From NCBI GenBank assembly GCA_900299195.1, contig OMIX01000061.1, positions 1-57,327 on the forward strand: 57,327 nt of DNA, given 5' to 3'. Positions 20,388 through 51,384 of the stretch are shown here, in pieces (position 1 is the stretch's first letter; each line of letters begins with the position of its first letter). Origin of the DNA: Deltaproteobacteria bacterium (GTDB lineage Bacteria; Bdellovibrionota; FAC87; UBA2466). A program made the position numbers and the translations under genes. A model generated the notes under the pieces. That model saw nothing but the letters and a program-made list of their open reading frames with translations, had not been told where the DNA came from and ran no database searches.

Positions 20388-21341
20388 TTGCAAGCTCAAG
20401 ATTCACACTCATTGGGATCTGACAGGTGGATAGAGTTCATCGACCCAAAAGATTGGAAAGCGGCGGTGGTTCGTTTTCCCAATCAGCCTTGGCGTTTTTA
20501 TGTGAAGCCCAATGGAAGTTACGATCGTGGCAATTGGGGCAATTTCTTAAAAGCAAAAGATTGGATTACCAGAGAATTGAGAAAATTCTCCTATCCTTTT
20601 TCTCCCGCTGAAACGCTTACATGCGAAACCTTATATAAACTTAGTTCTTTATTGCAGTTCGGGGACACTCACCAACACCATTGCATAGTCAGAGACAACA
20701 GTTTGATTATGATTCGGCGCCCGTACTCACTCATTAAATCTGTTTTTCATTCCTATGCACCCTTCTATAAAAGCTCAGGAAATCTTAAAATACCTGTCTT
20801 GGGCTTTGTTCCCAATGGTGTGGAAGTTCTGGATTTATTGTTACTAAAAAATGTACTGCTAAACACACCGGAAAAACAACAACGTGCTATTCTCGACAAG
20901 TTTTTTTCTGTTTCTGGAGAGTTTTCTTTGAGCAACCGAGTAAACAATAAAGCAAACTCCTGGGTAGTCGTATTTCCATATCGGAGAGAAGATATTTTAG
21001 AAAGTTTGCGCAATGTTCTTAGTTGGTACCATTCGGAAAGCACAAAAATCATGGCCTTGTATGAGCCTGGAACTGAGCCTTACCACCGAGCGGTGGTTAC
21101 ATTGGCAGTGCAGATGCAACGATTTGTAGATATGGTCCATTTTTCCAAGGACGCATCGGGTCGCACCAGTCGTCTAGTTCAGGAATACATTTGCCGTTTG
21201 TTTCGAGTTGCCCCCCCAATGCCTGTTCTGTTTCAATACAAAAACATCTGGATGGAAAATGGAACTTATTTGCCTTTAAACATGGCACTCAAAATGGCCT
21301 GGAAAGGATGCCAAAGAGCCCACCTGACAATGCCCGTTTGA
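20388..21341 (+). CDS. Fic-like protein, first copy, paired with PqqD-like gene
   Basis: A 317-residue protein with a TTG start at 20388 (GGAAGGA lies 11 bases upstream; an in-frame ATT at 20379 is closer). Near the C-terminus, HFSKDASGRTSR (His251) aligns with the Fic signature HxFx(D/E)GNGRxxR, keeping His, Asp, both Arg and one Gly but losing Gly-Asn. The helix before it (LAVQMQRFVDMVH) and the end after it (LVQEYICRLF) also look Fic-like. Its N-terminus (DWKAAVVRFPNQPWRFYVKP) matches the second copy at 47466. No precursor peptide is visible nearby, yet a PqqD-like gene follows by 33 bases, as in the other locus. It is probably a peptide-linked transferase, but the activity is inferred. 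Confidence 0.65.
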   Translation: MQAQDSHSLGSDRWIEFIDPKDWKAAVVRFPNQPWRFYVKPNGSYDRGNWGNFLKAKDWITRELRKFSYPFSPAETLTCETLYKLSSLLQFGDTHQHHCIVRDNSLIMIRRPYSLIKSVFHSYAPFYKSSGNLKIPVLGFVPNGVEVLDLLLLKNVLLNTPEKQQRAILDKFFSVSGEFSLSNRVNNKANSWVVVFPYRREDILESLRNVLSWYHSESTKIMALYEPGTEPYHRAVVTLAVQMQRFVDMVHFSKDASGRTSRLVQEYICRLFRVAPPMPVLFQYKNIWMENGTYLPLNMALKMAWKGCQRAHLTMPV

Positions 21342-21374: not shown

Positions 21375-21650
21375 ATGTACCCAATAAATAAAAAAAGAAT
21401 TGTTTGGAAAGAAATTAAAGACCAAGTCGTGGTCATGGATTTGGATACCTGGAGCCTTTACACCTTTGAGCATTTAGCAGCTTTCATCTGGAGGCGTTTG
21501 GTTATGCGTCGAAATGACCATGAAATTTTGGAAGACATCATTTCGGAATACAAGGTTGGGAGAGTTCAGGCGCTTAAAGATTTCCGATTTTTTATAAAAA
21601 CTCTAAAAAAACGAAATTTTTTCCTGAAAGCCTCAAATCCAAAGCGATAA
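21375..21650 (+). CDS. PqqD-like RRE protein next to first Fic-like gene
   Basis: A 91-residue protein with the PqqD/RRE winged-helix pattern: a first beta pair around INKKRIVWKEIKDQVVVMDLDTWSLYTFEHLAAFIW (tryptophan and aliphatic spacing as in PqqD), and a helical C-terminal half with ILEDIISEYKV and LKDFRFFIKTLKKRNFF. PqqD-type domains hold the leader of RiPP precursors for processing enzymes. It lies 33 bases after the Fic-like gene on the same strand, so they are likely an operon. It is one of three PqqD-like proteins in the window. No cognate precursor was found within 1 kb. Confidence 0.7.
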   Translation: MYPINKKRIVWKEIKDQVVVMDLDTWSLYTFEHLAAFIWRRLVMRRNDHEILEDIISEYKVGRVQALKDFRFFIKTLKKRNFFLKASNPKR

Positions 21651-45616: not shown

Positions 45617-46600
45617 TTATGCAGCGCGCCTTTTTGAGGGGTAATCGATAAGTTCCCGTTGAATCACTCGAGCTACTTCTCTAAATTTTTTTCCCCCGTA
45701 GCTCAATTGCACTGACCTCGACTGTTCGACTAATTTAGCCACTAGGTCCAAGTGAGCGATGGATTCCTTGGATAATAAAGGCTCATCACCTACAGCTAAA
45801 TAATAATCTTCCAAAAGCTTCCCGTAAGCTTTCAAAGAAGGAACCGGAGTCACTCTATATTCAGCTTTTTCATTGGGATTTAAAAAGATCACAGTTTGGA
45901 CCAAACATCGTTTCCCAATTGAATTACTCTTTATTTTTCTAGGGTCCAACAAAAACTTTCCACGGTCGGGATGCCAATTCATTTTACTTTCCCAAAGATG
46001 AAAGTAATTTTTAGAGTTTCTGTCTAAAGCAATTGCGCTTGGAAAACTTTTTCCCCACACCTTACCCTTTTCTAGAGATAAGATAGGGTGTTCATCCCCA
46101 TAGTACTTAAAACCCAATTCAATCAAAGCTGCACTTAACGAGCTTTTCCCAGCCCCTTTGGGTCCTAACAGCACAACTCCTTTCCCTTTCCAAGAAAGAA
46201 CAGCTGCATGAATGAATGAGGCCCCATGAGACCTCAACATTTGAGATACTGGATCTAAAAAAAACTGATGGTAAAGGGTTGGAGAGTGAGTTTTCTTTTT
46301 GGGGGGATAATAAACTACAGCCTGATTTTTGTGAAATGGGTAGGCTCGAACCAGGTTCCAAACCCAAATGTTCTCAACGTAACAGCGCCGCTTTAATTTT
46401 CGAATCGGTACTTTTTTTTGGGCAGGAAGAATGCGCAGTTTAAATTCTAGATTTGATTTACGGTCAATTCGCTTTTTTTTAGCAATCAGACTCCCGAAAT
46501 CAACCACATGTTCCGATACCGCTTGAGCCACATTTTTACCCTCCGACTCTAGCTCAATCAACCACTGGTGAAGTTGGATGACATTGCGGTATTTTTCCAT
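45617..46600 (-). CDS. HprK-like kinase (HPr-rel-A type), probable peptide kinase
   Basis: A 327-residue protein with a P-loop GPKGAGKSS (146-154) that sits in GVVLLGPKGAGKSSLSAALI, followed by YYGDEHPIL with Asp169 as the likely catalytic acid, as in HprK and related kinases. The first 120 residues are less conserved. HprK-like kinases adjacent to PqqD genes phosphorylate the C-terminal Ser of lasso peptides such as paeninodin. Here the next gene, upstream of it by 6 bases, is PqqD-like, giving the same pairing. The peptide at 48683 ends in Ser and could be its substrate. Confidence 0.8.
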   Translation of the reverse strand: MEKYRNVIQLHQWLIELESEGKNVAQAVSEHVVDFGSLIAKKKRIDRKSNLEFKLRILPAQKKVPIRKLKRRCYVENIWVWNLVRAYPFHKNQAVVYYPPKKKTHSPTLYHQFFLDPVSQMLRSHGASFIHAAVLSWKGKGVVLLGPKGAGKSSLSAALIELGFKYYGDEHPILSLEKGKVWGKSFPSAIALDRNSKNYFHLWESKMNWHPDRGKFLLDPRKIKSNSIGKRCLVQTVIFLNPNEKAEYRVTPVPSLKAYGKLLEDYYLAVGDEPLLSKESIAHLDLVAKLVEQSRSVQLSYGGKKFREVARVIQRELIDYPSKRRAA

Positions 46601-46606
46601 AAAAAA

Positions 46607-46888
46607 TTATCGGGTTCTGGGCTTTAAAGCTTTCTTTTGGATTAAAGCTTGAATCACGGCTTGTATATCTCTTTGTGCCTTTGCTTGAGAGATCTCGTAA
46701 CGTTTGGCGAAGGATTTAACCATTTGAGGTAGTGATTTTCCCTTACGCACTTGAGTCCAAATCCAACTTCCCGAATCATTGAGCGCGTGAAAGTGCTTTT
46801 CTTTAGGAAATAAAAACAGAACCTCATCATGAATCTGATGAAACTTAACTAAAGGGTTCACCTGATAACGCAGTTCTTTATTTTTCAT
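46607..46888 (-). CDS. PqqD-like RRE protein next to HprK-like kinase
   Basis: A 93-residue protein with the PqqD-like winged-helix pattern: VNPLVKFHQIHDEVLFLFPKEKHFHALNDSGSWIWTQV (beta segments with the N-x-S/W part), then helical LPQMVKSFAKRYEISQAKAQRDIQAVIQAL. PqqD domains bind the leader of RiPP precursors. It lies 6 bases before the kinase gene and has GGGGGT before its start. It may deliver the peptide to the kinase. It is divergent from the signal peptidase gene at 46984. Confidence 0.75.
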   Translation of the reverse strand: MKNKELRYQVNPLVKFHQIHDEVLFLFPKEKHFHALNDSGSWIWTQVRKGKSLPQMVKSFAKRYEISQAKAQRDIQAVIQALIQKKALKPRTR

Positions 46889-46977: not shown

Positions 46978-46983
46978 TATTTC

Positions 46984-47481
46984 ATGATTCACACGGATGC
47001 TCTCCAGCAGGCGGCAAAGGAATTGAAATGCCTCGAGCTTTTGCAAAACAACTTAGCTATTTTTGACTACTGCGGCATGAGCATGTTTCCCCTTTTCCGA
47101 GAAGGGGACAAAGTAGTGATCCAATCTTACCAAAACCAACTGCCCAAAATAGGGGACGTTATTGTTTTTCAAAGAGGCAATCAGCTCGTTCTCCATCGCC
47201 TGATTAAAATAGCCCCCCAGTTTTCAGAACCCAAGCCTTACTTAACCAAAGGAGATAATTGCGCCGCGGCTGATTTACCCTTAAACTTTTCGGACATTCT
47301 AGGAAAAGCGATTAGAATAGACCGGGGAGACACTCAAATTCGATTGAATTCTCTTTATGGCTGGACCCTTAAACTCTTACTCACCTTTTTATCACAATTA
47401 GAACTTAAACCTGCTGTTGAATCAAATATCGTTAAGAAGATAAAAAATCTAACTTTTCAACAAATTCAAAAAGAAATGTAA
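46984..47481 (+). CDS. S26-family signal peptidase-like protein, Ser-His type
   Basis: Start at ATG 46984, preferred over the TTG at 46936 because a promoter -10 lies six bases before it. The 165-residue protein has the catalytic Ser33 in CGMSMFPLFREGDKV, GDVIVFQRG in the beta core, and His71 in LVLHRLIKI in place of the Lys of classical LepB, then YLTKGDNC. This Ser-His form is the S26B/SipW/archaeal type. There is no N-terminal membrane segment, so it may act in the cytosol. It is next to the PqqD and kinase genes (divergent) and could remove the leader of the candidate precursor. Confidence 0.8.
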   Translation: MIHTDALQQAAKELKCLELLQNNLAIFDYCGMSMFPLFREGDKVVIQSYQNQLPKIGDVIVFQRGNQLVLHRLIKIAPQFSEPKPYLTKGDNCAAADLPLNFSDILGKAIRIDRGDTQIRLNSLYGWTLKLLLTFLSQLELKPAVESNIVKKIKNLTFQQIQKEM

Positions 47482-48434
47482 TGACCAGTTTTTGATTTGC
47501 TTTTGACTTTTTTCTTCGCAAGTTCGAAAGGCAAATAGGCTAATCGATGCCACTTATTCTTATAAAGCAAAATGGGTTTTGGATCTGGAGATGGGAATCC
47601 AAATTGCCAGTAAATATATTCTTCTACAAGTCGAGTCGTACGGCTTGTCGCATCTATCGCTAAATGGGTCATGTCGAGGTATCTCTGCATTTTAAGCGCT
47701 AATACGGCAACTGTTGAATAAAAGTGAGGAGAGTCTGAAGGAATATCTCGTAAAATTCGACGGCACTCTTTATTGTAGAAGTTTAAAATAGACTTCAACT
47801 GACGCTGAATTTGGTGCGGAGACAAAAGAAAATAAACAACATTTTTCTTTTCCTGTTCGGGGAAGCGTTTTTGAATCTCTCTTCTTAGCCCCTTCACCCT
47901 CAGCTTGATTTGTTTTAGATCTTTTGAAGAATCTAAACTTCGAGAAAAAGCTAGGTTCACCAGTTGAGACTCTTCAAACGGGAGAAATCCTTCCACTCTT
48001 AAGTTCAGTCGGTCAGCGTTTTTATATTGCGTCCCATTCCCCACAAAAAGGTGCTTCATTTTCGAGGAGAGTAATTGCCTATGAACGGGAATGTAGTTTC
48101 GGATGACCTCTTCAGCCGGGCGACTTTCCCCGAAAAGCATGAGTGAATTCAGTTCAATAATAAAATCTAAACTCAATCGATTGTTGATAATGCGCTCATG
48201 CAGTGAAGCCGCGGGGCGATTGGCTTTGGTCCAAGCCCTCAAATAGGCCTTTTTAAAATAGCTCCAACCCCGGTTTGGATATTGCCCATGAGGTTTGCAA
48301 TAGAACTTCCATGGAGTTTTTGGGAATTTTTGGTGAGCCGCGTTCCAATCTTGAGCATCTAAAAATCGTGCCAAGAGATCGTCAAAAGTTAACCTAGGGA
48401 CTTGTGAGACGGACGCCCTACTCTTCACATTCAA
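47466..48434 (-). CDS. Fic-like protein, second copy, in RiPP-like operon
   Basis: A 322-residue protein starting with TTG (48434) or GTG (48428), with AAGGG in front. Near the C-terminus, HLAIDATSRTTR (His257) aligns with the Fic HxFx(D/E)GNGRxxR motif: His, Asp and both Arg remain, and Gly-Asn-Gly becomes Ala-Thr-Ser. The N-terminal DWNAAHQKFPKTPWKFYCKP and the C-terminal YKNKW match the copy at 20388. FIIELNSLMLFGESR resembles the first Fic helix. It overlaps the PqqD-like gene by 17 bases, directly after the precursor. Fic enzymes attach AMP or other phosphates to hydroxyls; the loss of Asn may alter this. The activity is inferred. Confidence 0.65.
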   Translation of the reverse strand: MNVKSRASVSQVPRLTFDDLLARFLDAQDWNAAHQKFPKTPWKFYCKPHGQYPNRGWSYFKKAYLRAWTKANRPAASLHERIINNRLSLDFIIELNSLMLFGESRPAEEVIRNYIPVHRQLLSSKMKHLFVGNGTQYKNADRLNLRVEGFLPFEESQLVNLAFSRSLDSSKDLKQIKLRVKGLRREIQKRFPEQEKKNVVYFLLSPHQIQRQLKSILNFYNKECRRILRDIPSDSPHFYSTVAVLALKMQRYLDMTHLAIDATSRTTRLVEEYIYWQFGFPSPDPKPILLYKNKWHRLAYLPFELAKKKVKSKSKTGHYISF

Positions 48435-48693
48435 TCAGCCCTTCGGATTTGAGTTGAGTTAAAAACTCTGAAACATCTTGTTCGGCTATTTCTTGGGGAA
48501 CTTCGTAATTTTCTCTCACCCATTCCACGAGGGCTGGGTAATCAGCCCCCTCGCAGATGAGCCGCCACAACTCTTCCCCCACCCCTTCTACCGAAAAATA
48601 GCTGTTTTGGGAGGCATTTAGAATGACCGACTTATCGTCTAAATAGCTAGAGAAAACCTCTTTTTTTCGGGGAGAAAAGGATTTAAGACCCAT
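48418..48693 (-). CDS. PqqD-like RRE protein overlapping precursor and Fic-like genes
   Basis: Start set at ATG 48693, which lies within the last codons of the precursor gene (GGC TAT GGG); a GTG at 48702 would add three residues. The 91-residue product shows the PqqD pattern: KEVFSSYLDDKSVILNASQNSYFSVEGVGEELWRLI (beta, N-x-S-x-Y, E-LW as in PqqD), then CEGADYPALVEWVRENYEV and a helical end (DVSEFLTQLKSEGLI). It would bind the YxxPxL leader of the peptide and present it to the Fic-like protein. The overlaps on both sides show tight coupling in one operon. Confidence 0.75.
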   Translation of the reverse strand: MGLKSFSPRKKEVFSSYLDDKSVILNASQNSYFSVEGVGEELWRLICEGADYPALVEWVRENYEVPQEIAEQDVSEFLTQLKSEGLIECEE

Positions 48694-48880
48694 AGCCGCC
48701 ACCCGGTGGTGGTACTGGTGGGGTGCTTACCCCTATCCCCCATACCTTCACCCCTAGTTTTTCTAATTTTTTGAGCTGTGGTTTGGAGTAGGCTTGGGAA
48801 GAACTTTTCTTAGAATTTTTGTTTGTTCGAACCGACTTTTTGTCTTTTGTTAAACTTTTTGATCGAGGTGTTGTTTTCAT
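48683..48880 (-). CDS. Candidate RiPP precursor peptide with YxxPxL leader and Pro/Gly tail ending in YGS
   Basis: A 65-residue peptide from ATG 48880 (an upstream GTG would give 81). Residues 1-30 are basic and Ser/Thr/Lys-rich. AYSKPQLKKLEKLG (30-43) fits the YxxPxLxxLxxLG type of RRE-bound leader seen in lasso precursors. The tail VKVWGIGVSTPPVPPPGGGYGS at 44-65 is split here as VKVWGIGVST and PPVPPPGGGYGS. There is no Cys, and no Asp or Glu for a lasso ring, and no cyclase gene is nearby. The end is Tyr63-Gly64-Ser65; its codons overlap the PqqD-like start. The kinase and transferases could act on Tyr or Ser. Confidence 0.65.
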   Translation of the reverse strand: MKTTPRSKSLTKDKKSVRTNKNSKKSSSQAYSKPQLKKLEKLGVKVWGIGVSTPPVPPPGGGYGS

Positions 48881-48886
48881 AACCCG

Positions 48887-48916
48887 ATTATAGCAATGCC
48901 TTTTTGGGATTGCTAA
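48887..48916 (-). promoter_or_regulatory. Promoter of precursor operon with -10 next to ATG
   Basis: On the minus strand a perfect TATAAT (48887-48892) lies only six bases before the precursor ATG (48880). A TTAGCA-like -35 (48911-48916) is 18 bases upstream of it. Transcription would begin at about the first codon, so the mRNA may be leaderless. The same spacing occurs at the signal peptidase gene. Confidence 0.55.
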
Positions 48917-48954
48917 CAGAAATACCATTTCAAATCAAAATCTAGAAAGCATTG

Positions 48955-49911
48955 CTAAGTGTTATAAACTGACCACGGCCAGGGTCCTATGCGGGTAACC
49001 GGAACGGAGGAGGCTTTTATTGCATAGAAAACAAACCCGCTACAACTACATAAGAGTTTTTTGCAACTGGCCAATAAAGCCATATCCCTAAGAGCATCGT
49101 GAATTTGGCGATAGGGTCCAATCTCTTTTCGCTTTGCTTCCAAAATTTCCCTATTAAAATCGGAAAGGCCTTCTATTAAAACATGTCCTGCCCCACACCC
49201 CTCAGGGAAAAGATATCTGTCCGTATGATAAACCCGCTTCGGATATCTCTGCTGACAAAGAGCTAAAAATCTCGGGCTGTCGGTGCAAATAAAAAACCCT
49301 CCACTTTCTTTATCCATAGCATCAAAAAAATCTTCCATGCGGCACGGCTTTTCTAGGCGCTCTTTATCTAGAATTTCTCCATTACCAAATCGAGCATAAA
49401 CCCCAACTCGCTCACCAATTTTTGGTCGATAATAATCCAAGGTCTGTTGCAACTTAGCGCCCCACACTAAAGTTTTTTTTAGTCTACCCAATTCCGGTTT
49501 GAACTTTTTAAAAGTCGAAGCTTGGTAAATTCGTATTCCGGTTAATTCAATTTGCGTATCCAATGCCAGCTGAGGAAAAAAAGAAATAGCAAAGGTGTTT
49601 TGGGGTTCTCTACAAAGAATTTGATCTATTATTCGACTATCGGAAATGATTCGGTTATCCAAACTTTTAGAATCGAACCATTCCAATTTAAAAAGTGAGT
49701 CGATCAACTCTGAGTTGTAGCCTCCATCAAATCCCTTAAAGTAACAGGATCTTCTAAGATCAAAAAGAATTCTCAAATCATTCCAGTGATGCAGTCTTGA
49801 TAAAATAGCGTCAAAAAACCGAAACTGGCTTCCCATACCGTCCGTTTGGGAAAAATAAAGATATTTGTATTTCTGTAAAGCGTTTAACTCAACTTGTTCC
49901 GAAGGCTCCAT
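48955..49911 (-). CDS. NodZ/GT23-like fucosyltransferase-fold glycosyltransferase (probable)
   Basis: A 318-residue cytosolic protein. GVYARFGNGE (170-179), FFICTDSPRFLALCQQRYP (206-224) and a C-terminal ALRDMALLASCKKLLCSCSGF (last segment before FVFYA) fit the nodulation fucosyltransferase (NodZ) and related O-fucosyltransferase pattern: an Arg near a GNGE loop for the sugar nucleotide, then a D-S-x-R fold. It starts after the divergent nucleotidyltransferase and is upstream of the precursor promoter, so it may be its own unit. It would add a sugar to the peptide or to surface glycan. The family is probable, the sugar unknown. Confidence 0.6.
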   Translation of the reverse strand: MEPSEQVELNALQKYKYLYFSQTDGMGSQFRFFDAILSRLHHWNDLRILFDLRRSCYFKGFDGGYNSELIDSLFKLEWFDSKSLDNRIISDSRIIDQILCREPQNTFAISFFPQLALDTQIELTGIRIYQASTFKKFKPELGRLKKTLVWGAKLQQTLDYYRPKIGERVGVYARFGNGEILDKERLEKPCRMEDFFDAMDKESGGFFICTDSPRFLALCQQRYPKRVYHTDRYLFPEGCGAGHVLIEGLSDFNREILEAKRKEIGPYRQIHDALRDMALLASCKKLLCSCSGFVFYAIKASSVPVTRIGPWPWSVYNT

Positions 49912-50076: not shown

Positions 50077-51384
50077 ATGGCCGTCGTCGATTTAAAATCC
50101 TATCCCCCTTTTGTTCTTCCTGTGCCACGACACGCCATACACCTTCCGCCTGACCCTCTCCCCTTTTGGTGGTGTGACCCTTATCAAAGGTATTTGCTCG
50201 ATTTAAGCTTTTCCCAAAATGATTTAACACCCGAAGAATTAAATTGGCTCCATCAAAACTATGAAGCGTTATTAGCCCGAATACCCACGGCTAGACTTCT
50301 TCGACTCATCGCCGAATTTAAAGATGAGTCGCTAAAACAGCACCCGGAACTCCATGAAAAGCTCCAAACCTTGACGTCATTAGCTTTGTTACACAACAAA
50401 AAAATAGTCTTTTGCCAAAATCAGCTTCTAGAAGAACTGGAAAAAAGAAGTGTCCCATCATTTCTCATAAAAGGGGCGGCACTCATTAGAAAAATTCCCG
50501 ATACTATTTACTTTCGAAACATCGGAGATGTGGATTTTTTCATTCCTGAAAATAAAGTCAAAGAAGTTCTCGAACACCTTCTAAACTTAGGGTGCCGATT
50601 TGCCCCTAACCTTCTCTTTGGAAAAACCTTTAATACGATAGAGTCTCTTTTGCCTTTTCGGCACTCTTTTGACCTCTTTGATCCCCATCATCAAGTGGGG
50701 CTCGATCTTCACTGGCATCTCTGTCCCCAATCTCCCAACTCAAAATTTGATCAAATCCTCGGTGCGTTAAAACGGACACCCCCTCCACCGGAAGCCCCGA
50801 AAACTTTGGAAGCCAACGAAATGTTCTTGTTGGCCATCGTTCATGCTTTAGGAGACCGGTGGAACCAACCCCAATCCCACTGGGTGATCGACACTTTGGC
50901 TTTAGCTCGTTACTGCCCCAACGAAATAGATTGGAAAAAAATATTCTGGCTAGCTAAGAAAACTGAGTATGTCGCTTTTATTCAACTGGCTCTTAAGTTT
51001 CTTCACGAAATCGACCCCGAAACCATTCCCCAAACGTGGATTAAAAAATCAAAGAAGCTTAGGTTAACCTTCAAAGAAAAGCTGGACCGTTTCTTTTTAA
51101 CTCAGATGAGACGCAATGTAGAGTTAAGGGGACTGTCTCGATTTATCATGGGTATTTACCGAACCGAGTTTTTCAGAGCCCGTGGATTCACCCTCAACAC
51201 TTTAAGAATTTATACTTATTACTACTCCCACAACGAATGTCACCTAGCTATCCACAAACGGTTTTTAAATTATCGTCAACGAGTTATCATTCCATCCCTT
51301 AAGAAATACTGGAGCCACGCAAAGGAAACCTTATTAGGAAGGTTTAACTTCATCCTGTTCTGGAAAAAACATTTAAATTCCTAA
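50077..51384 (+). CDS. NTP_transf_5-family nucleotidyltransferase (PF14907 type)
   Basis: A 435-residue protein with the NTP_transf_5 pattern: SFLIKGAALIRKI (the LKGxAL part), then FRNIGDVDFFIPENK with Asp151 and Asp153 as metal ligands, GLDLHWHLC further on, and MFLLAIVHALGDRW. The CGGAGCC site lies about 12 bases before the start. PF14907 proteins accompany HprK-like kinases in lasso peptide loci, where the pseudomycoidin member adds to a phosphorylated C-terminal Ser. It diverges from the glycosyltransferase gene. It may act on the peptide after the kinase; the donor is unknown. Confidence 0.85.
   Translation: MAVVDLKSYPPFVLPVPRHAIHLPPDPLPFWWCDPYQRYLLDLSFSQNDLTPEELNWLHQNYEALLARIPTARLLRLIAEFKDESLKQHPELHEKLQTLTSLALLHNKKIVFCQNQLLEELEKRSVPSFLIKGAALIRKIPDTIYFRNIGDVDFFIPENKVKEVLEHLLNLGCRFAPNLLFGKTFNTIESLLPFRHSFDLFDPHHQVGLDLHWHLCPQSPNSKFDQILGALKRTPPPPEAPKTLEANEMFLLAIVHALGDRWNQPQSHWVIDTLALARYCPNEIDWKKIFWLAKKTEYVAFIQLALKFLHEIDPETIPQTWIKKSKKLRLTFKEKLDRFFLTQMRRNVELRGLSRFIMGIYRTEFFRARGFTLNTLRIYTYYYSHNECHLAIHKRFLNYRQRVIIPSLKKYWSHAKETLLGRFNFILFWKKHLNS

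Follow-up and report, generated by a model that had tools for sequence, protein, structure and literature searches.

A divergent Fic protein encoded with PqqD and a candidate RiPP precursor in a Bdellovibrionota genome

Results and Discussion

The DNA analysed here, hereafter the window, is a stretch of 57,327 nucleotides from a bacterium of the Bdellovibrionota (contig OMIX01000061.1, assembly GCA_900299195.1). Within it, a candidate RiPP precursor, a stand-alone PqqD and a divergent Fic protein, here called X, are encoded by three overlapping genes, and a paralogue of X, X2, is encoded elsewhere in the window next to a PqqD gene of its own. Our preferred reading, held with modest confidence, is that of a RiPP-type cluster in which X would be a PqqD-guided enzyme modifying a hydroxyl in the tail of the peptide. 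Members of the Fic superfamily modify whole proteins with nucleotides, phosphate or sugars, and act in signalling and toxicity. Action of X on the peptide would give the superfamily a biosynthetic role, and genome mining a new enzyme marker.

An overlapping run of peptide, PqqD and Fic genes

The precursor gene, pqqD1 and the gene for X form a single head-to-tail run on the minus strand, with overlaps of 17-20 nt. The features of this region are as follows:

48683..48880, minus strand: candidate RiPP precursor of 65 residues, with a basic leader containing YSKPQL, a Cys-free tail (GVSTPPVPPPGGGYGS) and a C-terminal Ser
48418..48702, minus strand: PqqD1, a stand-alone RRE (Pfam PqqD, 6.7e-15, 55.6 bits, cut-off 23.4)
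47466..48434, minus strand: X, a divergent Fic protein of 322 residues, with the motif HLAIDATSRTTR at residues 257-268
48887..48916, minus strand: promoter-like sequence TTAGCA-18-(TG)TATAAT, directly before the ATG of the precursor

An earlier reading of this DNA, made from the sequence alone (the sequence-only reading), had described a 65-residue peptide with a leader, a PqqD-like gene and an overlapping third gene, and all three are found as described. PqqD1 starts at a GTG codon inside the precursor gene, which it overlaps by 20 nt, and the gene for X overlaps that of PqqD1 by 17 nt. An alternative reading of the precursor, with 81 residues from position 48928, is possible. The promoter-like sequence is the best match in the region, where eight such sites were found against 10 expected by chance; since this extended -10 site ends 7 nt before the ATG, the precursor transcript may be leaderless.

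The pattern Y.[KR]P.[LIV] is found in one of the 226 window ORFs of 40-110 residues, the precursor, whose leader is similar to the leaders of 12 sibling precursors from the phylum (see below); the precursor itself was seen in one genome only. Stand-alone PqqD proteins bind leaders, with an affinity in the nanomolar range, and deliver them to the enzyme (PMC5067487); in the reading that we prefer PqqD1 would bind the YSKPQL leader and offer the Cys-free tail to X.

The best NCBIfam match of PqqD1 is lasso_PqqD_Bac (6.8e-15, under the cut-off of that model), so that PqqD1 is most like the lasso B1 chaperones, and X stands where the leader peptidase B2 often follows B1. To take the locus for a lasso peptide cluster, and X for a B2 that has diverged, is nonetheless almost certainly wrong, as judged on the sequence: neither an AsnB-type cyclase nor a B2 match is present in the window, the tail has no Asp or Glu for a macrolactam, X2 does not conserve the two Cys residues of X, and X is homologous to Fic proteins. 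The two PF00733 matches of the genome lie on other contigs, and a B2 leader peptidase was found on contig C20, where a second RiPP-like cluster of this genome (L032, 8317-12401, G000:C20) codes for an NTP_transf_5 protein, PqqD, HprK, a B2-like peptidase, a glycosyltransferase and a 64-residue precursor ending in Ser (FESPEIELLGSLEDLT), with no lasso cyclase nearby. Lasso-type clusters with PqqD and AsnB occur in the same family (L025, L026, L027 and L029; B2 in three of the four), and the lasso precursors of L026 and L029 have YQKPVxVKLGS leaders.

A paralogue of X with its own PqqD

The second locus comprises two genes:

20388..21341, plus strand: X2, a paralogue of X with 317 residues and the motif HFSKDASGRTSR
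21375..21650, plus strand: PqqD3, 33 nt downstream of X2 on the same strand (Pfam PqqD, 1e-9, above the cut-off)

Across 311 alignment columns, X2 shares 29% identity with X. Of the four PqqD genes in the genome, three are in the window, all above the Pfam cut-off, and X and X2 each adjoin one of them. Two independent placements of this kind are unlikely to arise by chance (about 1e-5, for a genome estimated at ~2,800 genes), an ancient joint duplication of the X-PqqD pair being a possible alternative to independent placement. The gene order is peptide-PqqD-X at one site and X-PqqD at the other, and a comparison of PqqD1 with PqqD3 did not show them to be mutual best matches. X2 and its PqqD had no part in the sequence-only reading, which also lacked the kinase, the peptidase and the nucleotidyltransferase around the locus of X (see below). 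That reading expected homologues of X to sit beside PqqD or a leader-bearing peptide gene; the sole homologue found, X2, does adjoin PqqD, but has no peptide gene, no recognisable precursor being found near X2 and no second precursor turning up elsewhere in a search for sequences like the window peptide.

The isolation of the X2-PqqD3 pair could mean that X acts on another protein or on a small molecule, with X-PqqD as a self-contained unit and the adjacency of the peptide incidental; PqqD genes of the phylum do occur in many contexts. We consider this quite improbable, since the genes of the peptide, PqqD1 and X overlap, with translational coupling probable, and since the modules around X match those of a recurrent RiPP cluster. 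The presence, twice, of a small gene beside a Fic gene is also what a Fic-type toxin-antitoxin module would give, with the PqqD-like protein as the antitoxin. However, neither PqqD1 nor PqqD3 nor X contains the motif of class I Fic antitoxins, [ST]xxxE[GN] (PMC5033356), and the two small proteins are both PqqD above the Pfam cut-off; this explanation was rejected on these grounds and is very improbable.

X and X2 are divergent Fic proteins

Standard family searches do not recognise X: it had no Pfam match at E<=10, falling under the gathering cut-off of PF02661, and none in NCBIfam or PHROG. When an HMM of 28 canonical Fic proteins was run over 104 window ORFs, X2 came first and X second, both weakly. 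In hhalign, X scored 36.9 against the 28 mixed canonical Fic cores (column shuffles, 14.0 +/- 2.6, maximum 23), and 20.1 with the motif masked, which is inside the shuffled range (up to 22). As the score came mostly from the motif, this comparison was set aside as a basis for homology, and the drop upon masking led us to run an unbiased test, in which a profile made from the cores of X and X2 only was searched over 369 genomes of the phylum.

At about 19 of the 29 top non-self loci, this profile retrieved in-register Fic proteins, with HPFxDGNGR aligned. The retrieved proteins form a subfamily with the core QRxFVxIHPFxDGNGRTSRxVQDYI, and both members checked (n=2) pass the Pfam Fic cut-off. 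hhalign to this subfamily gave a probability of 97.9 and a score of 95 (shuffles, 13.6 +/- 2.2), and still 96.0 and 69 with the 12 motif residues masked. The N-terminal segment of X, RF[LI]D..DW..A...P...Y, independently matches the N-terminal stretch ARRFIDRRDW..A...P...Y.P of these Fic proteins (score of 34 versus 12 +/- 2). Finally, an HMM of 19 natural Fic proteins, X and X2 excluded, gave 8.8e-15 for X, 6.1e-14 for X2 and 0.11 for the next of the 104 window ORFs; because the 19 proteins had been picked for their resemblance to the X/X2 core, the core scores are inflated, whereas the N-terminal match is outside that selection. Thus, the Fic identity that the sequence-only reading took from the motif was right: by these sequence comparisons, X and X2 are true, if divergent, Fic proteins, and the homology extends beyond the motif.

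A PDB search with the core profile gave FICD as the best sequence match (E=0.02). AlphaFold, with a two-sequence input, produced models of low confidence (pLDDT of 36 and 56), in which the predicted helices fit alpha-2, alpha-4 and alpha-5. Fold searches with both low-confidence models found nothing informative, and a match to IbpA Fic2 (rank 8, rmsd of 22, from a low-confidence model) was dismissed as meaningless.

In the retrieved subfamily (e.g., L166, L171, L172 and L188), an N-terminal motif, ARRFIDRRDW..Y.PAP.TW..W, and the Fic core are colinear with X. Its members have canonical motifs and, unlike X, no PqqD in their flanks; several have signal peptides (by eye), which are absent from both X and X2. 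X and X2 probably descend from this exported subfamily of the phylum, judging from the shared sequence features, with the signal peptide missing in both. Apparently exported Fic proteins with an N-terminal RRFIDRRDW..Y.PAP.TW..W region are found in several families of the phylum (L166, L168, L171, L172, L176, L181, L187 and L188).

The active-site motif

The canonical Fic motif is HxFx[DE]GNGRxxR (PMC5033356), to which neither HLAIDATSRTTR nor HFSKDASGRTSR conforms. Both copies have HxxxDA[ST]xRTxR instead, in which the His, the Asp and both Arg residues are kept in exact spacing, in X2 just as the sequence-only reading had seen in X. The Phe is lost and G-N is replaced by A-[ST], with the first Gly and the Asn altered in both copies; the motif of X2 is nearer to the canonical one than that of X. 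X shares with the Fic/Fido proteins (Fic, Doc and AvrB; PF02661) homology across the flap to alpha-5 core, as well as the four residues, and with Doc (HxFx[DN][AG]NKR) the 'DA' that follows the His. It is unlike them in the absence of the Phe, the first Gly and the Asn, in falling under the Pfam cut-off, in showing no inhibitory motif that we could find, and in its coupling with PqqD and with a gene for a peptide.

In our preferred reading, H257 would serve as the base and D261 would bind the metal, with R265 and R268 contacting the phosphates of a nucleotide-type donor; the group transferred by X (NMP, phosphate or possibly a sugar) would be placed on the hydroxyl of S52, T53 or Y63. Doc, which has 'DA' at the equivalent position of the motif, is a kinase (PMC4177925), and AvrB, whose motif differs greatly, transfers sugar from a UDP-rhamnose donor as a glycosyltransferase (PMC10866546); the donor of X is therefore not predictable. 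The sequence-only reading had inferred T53, Y63 or S65 as the residue modified by X; as discussed below, S65 more probably belongs to other enzymes. With the Phe, the first Gly and the Asn altered in both copies, X could lack activity or catalyse a different reaction, and the motif is compatible with either altered chemistry or a pseudo-enzyme.

The surrounding modules and the sibling clusters

The run is surrounded by the following genes:

45617..46600, minus strand: HprK-like kinase, candidate C-terminal-Ser kinase
46607..46888, minus strand: PqqD2 (Pfam PqqD, 1.2e-11), adjoining the HprK-like kinase gene
46981..47481, plus strand: S24/S26 (signal peptidase I-like) peptidase, candidate leader peptidase (TIGR02228, 3.2e-14, above the cut-off)
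48955..49911, minus strand: 318-residue protein upstream of the precursor, glycosyltransferase-like by eye (GVYARFGNGE)
50077..51384, plus strand: NTP_transf_5 nucleotidyltransferase-like protein (PF14907, 1.5e-28, above the cut-off)

The kinase matches TIGR04352 (HprK_rel_A) at 4.1e-12, far under the cut-off, and an HMM seeded with sibling kinases at 3.4e-93, the window protein itself being among the seeds. The peptidase gene is on the strand opposite to X, and its 3' end runs 16 nt into X.

PqqD neighbourhoods were gathered across the phylum (113 stretches, some overlapping). Many of them carry a precursor, HprK, PqqD, a radical SAM enzyme, an S26 peptidase, which recurs beside PqqD, and an NTP_transf_5 protein, and a few clusters (L105, L106, L134 and L148) have two PqqD genes, near HprK and beside the radical SAM gene. 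The sibling precursors (L081, L084, L095, L097, L105, L106, L109, L110, L114, L118, L134 and L148) have a basic leader with YxKPx[ILV] and a core of the type ALCNGxxxGGRKxxTGxPxFC; the C-terminal residue is Ser in 11 of the 12, and Thr in the twelfth. Two of them were tested, and no NCBIfam family was above the cut-off; this may be an undescribed RiPP family.

The window holds HprK, S26, NTP_transf_5, PqqD and a precursor that ends in Ser, that is, every sibling module except the radical SAM enzyme, for which an HMM of the sibling enzymes found no match among the window ORFs. With the phylum PqqD-radical SAM clusters (e.g., L105, L148, L114 and L097), the window thus has in common YxKPx[IVL], the Ser end, HprK, S26, NTP_transf_5 and PqqD; it differs from them in having X beside PqqD in place of a radical SAM enzyme, and a core with no GGRK and without the Cys present in the sibling cores. 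As the radical SAM enzyme alone is missing and X is beside PqqD, X takes the radical SAM slot. The RiPP reading proposed from the sequence is strengthened by this recurrent cluster type, as well as by the leader-bearing peptide and the PqqD pairing in both copies. In the most novel form of this reading, a Fic protein that the phylum exports would have shed its signal peptide and stepped in for the radical SAM enzyme of a pre-existing cluster. Nature would then have exchanged the modifying enzyme while keeping the architecture of the cluster, with the core shifting from Cys-containing to Cys-free; a swap of enzyme with a matching core change makes RRE modularity testable.

In lasso precursors, the Ser at the C-terminus is phosphorylated by homologues of HprK, and the phosphate receives a hexose from a nucleotidyltransferase (PMC8498205). 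By analogy, the HprK-like kinase and NTP_transf_5 are likelier than X to act on S65: the kinase would phosphorylate S65 with PqqD2, separately from X, and NTP_transf_5 could decorate the phosphate. The leader could be cut off by the S26-like peptidase, possibly in place of B2. The HprK-like kinase, NTP_transf_5, the C-terminal Ser and PqqD (B1) are shared with lasso tailoring of the paeninodin/pseudomycoidin type; in contrast to these systems, the window has no AsnB cyclase, no B2 and no acidic ring residue, and has an S26-like peptidase instead.

That these parts are all present, and that such tailoring is established for lasso precursors (PMC8498205), also suits an explanation in which X is a catalytically dead Fic scaffold or substrate binder, the chemistry being done at the C-terminal Ser by the kinase and NTP_transf_5 to yield a phosphorylated or glycosylated linear peptide. 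The alterations of the motif in X and X2 agree with it. We think it unlikely, however, as the His, the metal-binding Asp and both Arg residues are kept although X and X2 have diverged so far (29-30% identity); moreover, HprK is already beside PqqD2, which leaves PqqD1 for X. Returning to X as an active enzyme, we put at about even the chances that the locus represents a RiPP type whose defining modification comes from a PqqD-guided Fic-fold transferase, which would leave the tail nucleotidylated, phosphorylated or glycosylated.

Relatives and precedents

No other relative, and no further locus with X, the peptide and PqqD, was found in 59 relatives, in 369 genomes of the phylum, or in plasmids or phages, and an X-like protein was absent from all other PqqD neighbourhoods examined in the phylum. 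Scans of genome and viral contig collections with the peptide pattern found no relative, and the matches to the motif pattern in these collections were chance reading frames. At L029 (G007), a canonical Fic gene and a lasso PqqD are some 2 kb apart with an intervening gene, and the Fic gene does not seem to belong to that cluster. A literature search for Fic together with RiPP, PqqD, lasso peptides or natural products returned nothing relevant, although few subscription journals were covered and absence is unproven.

Addition of a nucleotide group to a ribosomal peptide is known from MccB, a ThiF-like enzyme of the microcin C type. X belongs to a different enzyme family, and no ThiF-like gene was recognised in the window. 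The components of the cluster are of known kinds and their combination appears to be new; should activity be shown, a new RiPP class is a possibility that would be founded, on the sequences at hand, on one genome and two copies.

The 318-residue protein upstream of the precursor has no family match in Pfam, NCBIfam or PHROG, and may lie outside the cluster. Its homologues, at G000:C4 and G001:C131, have short flanks without PqqD. The protein (L200 and L196) is genus-restricted among the genomes searched, marginal matches aside, and the copy on C4 of the same genome adjoins what appears by eye to be a Kdo-transferase gene.
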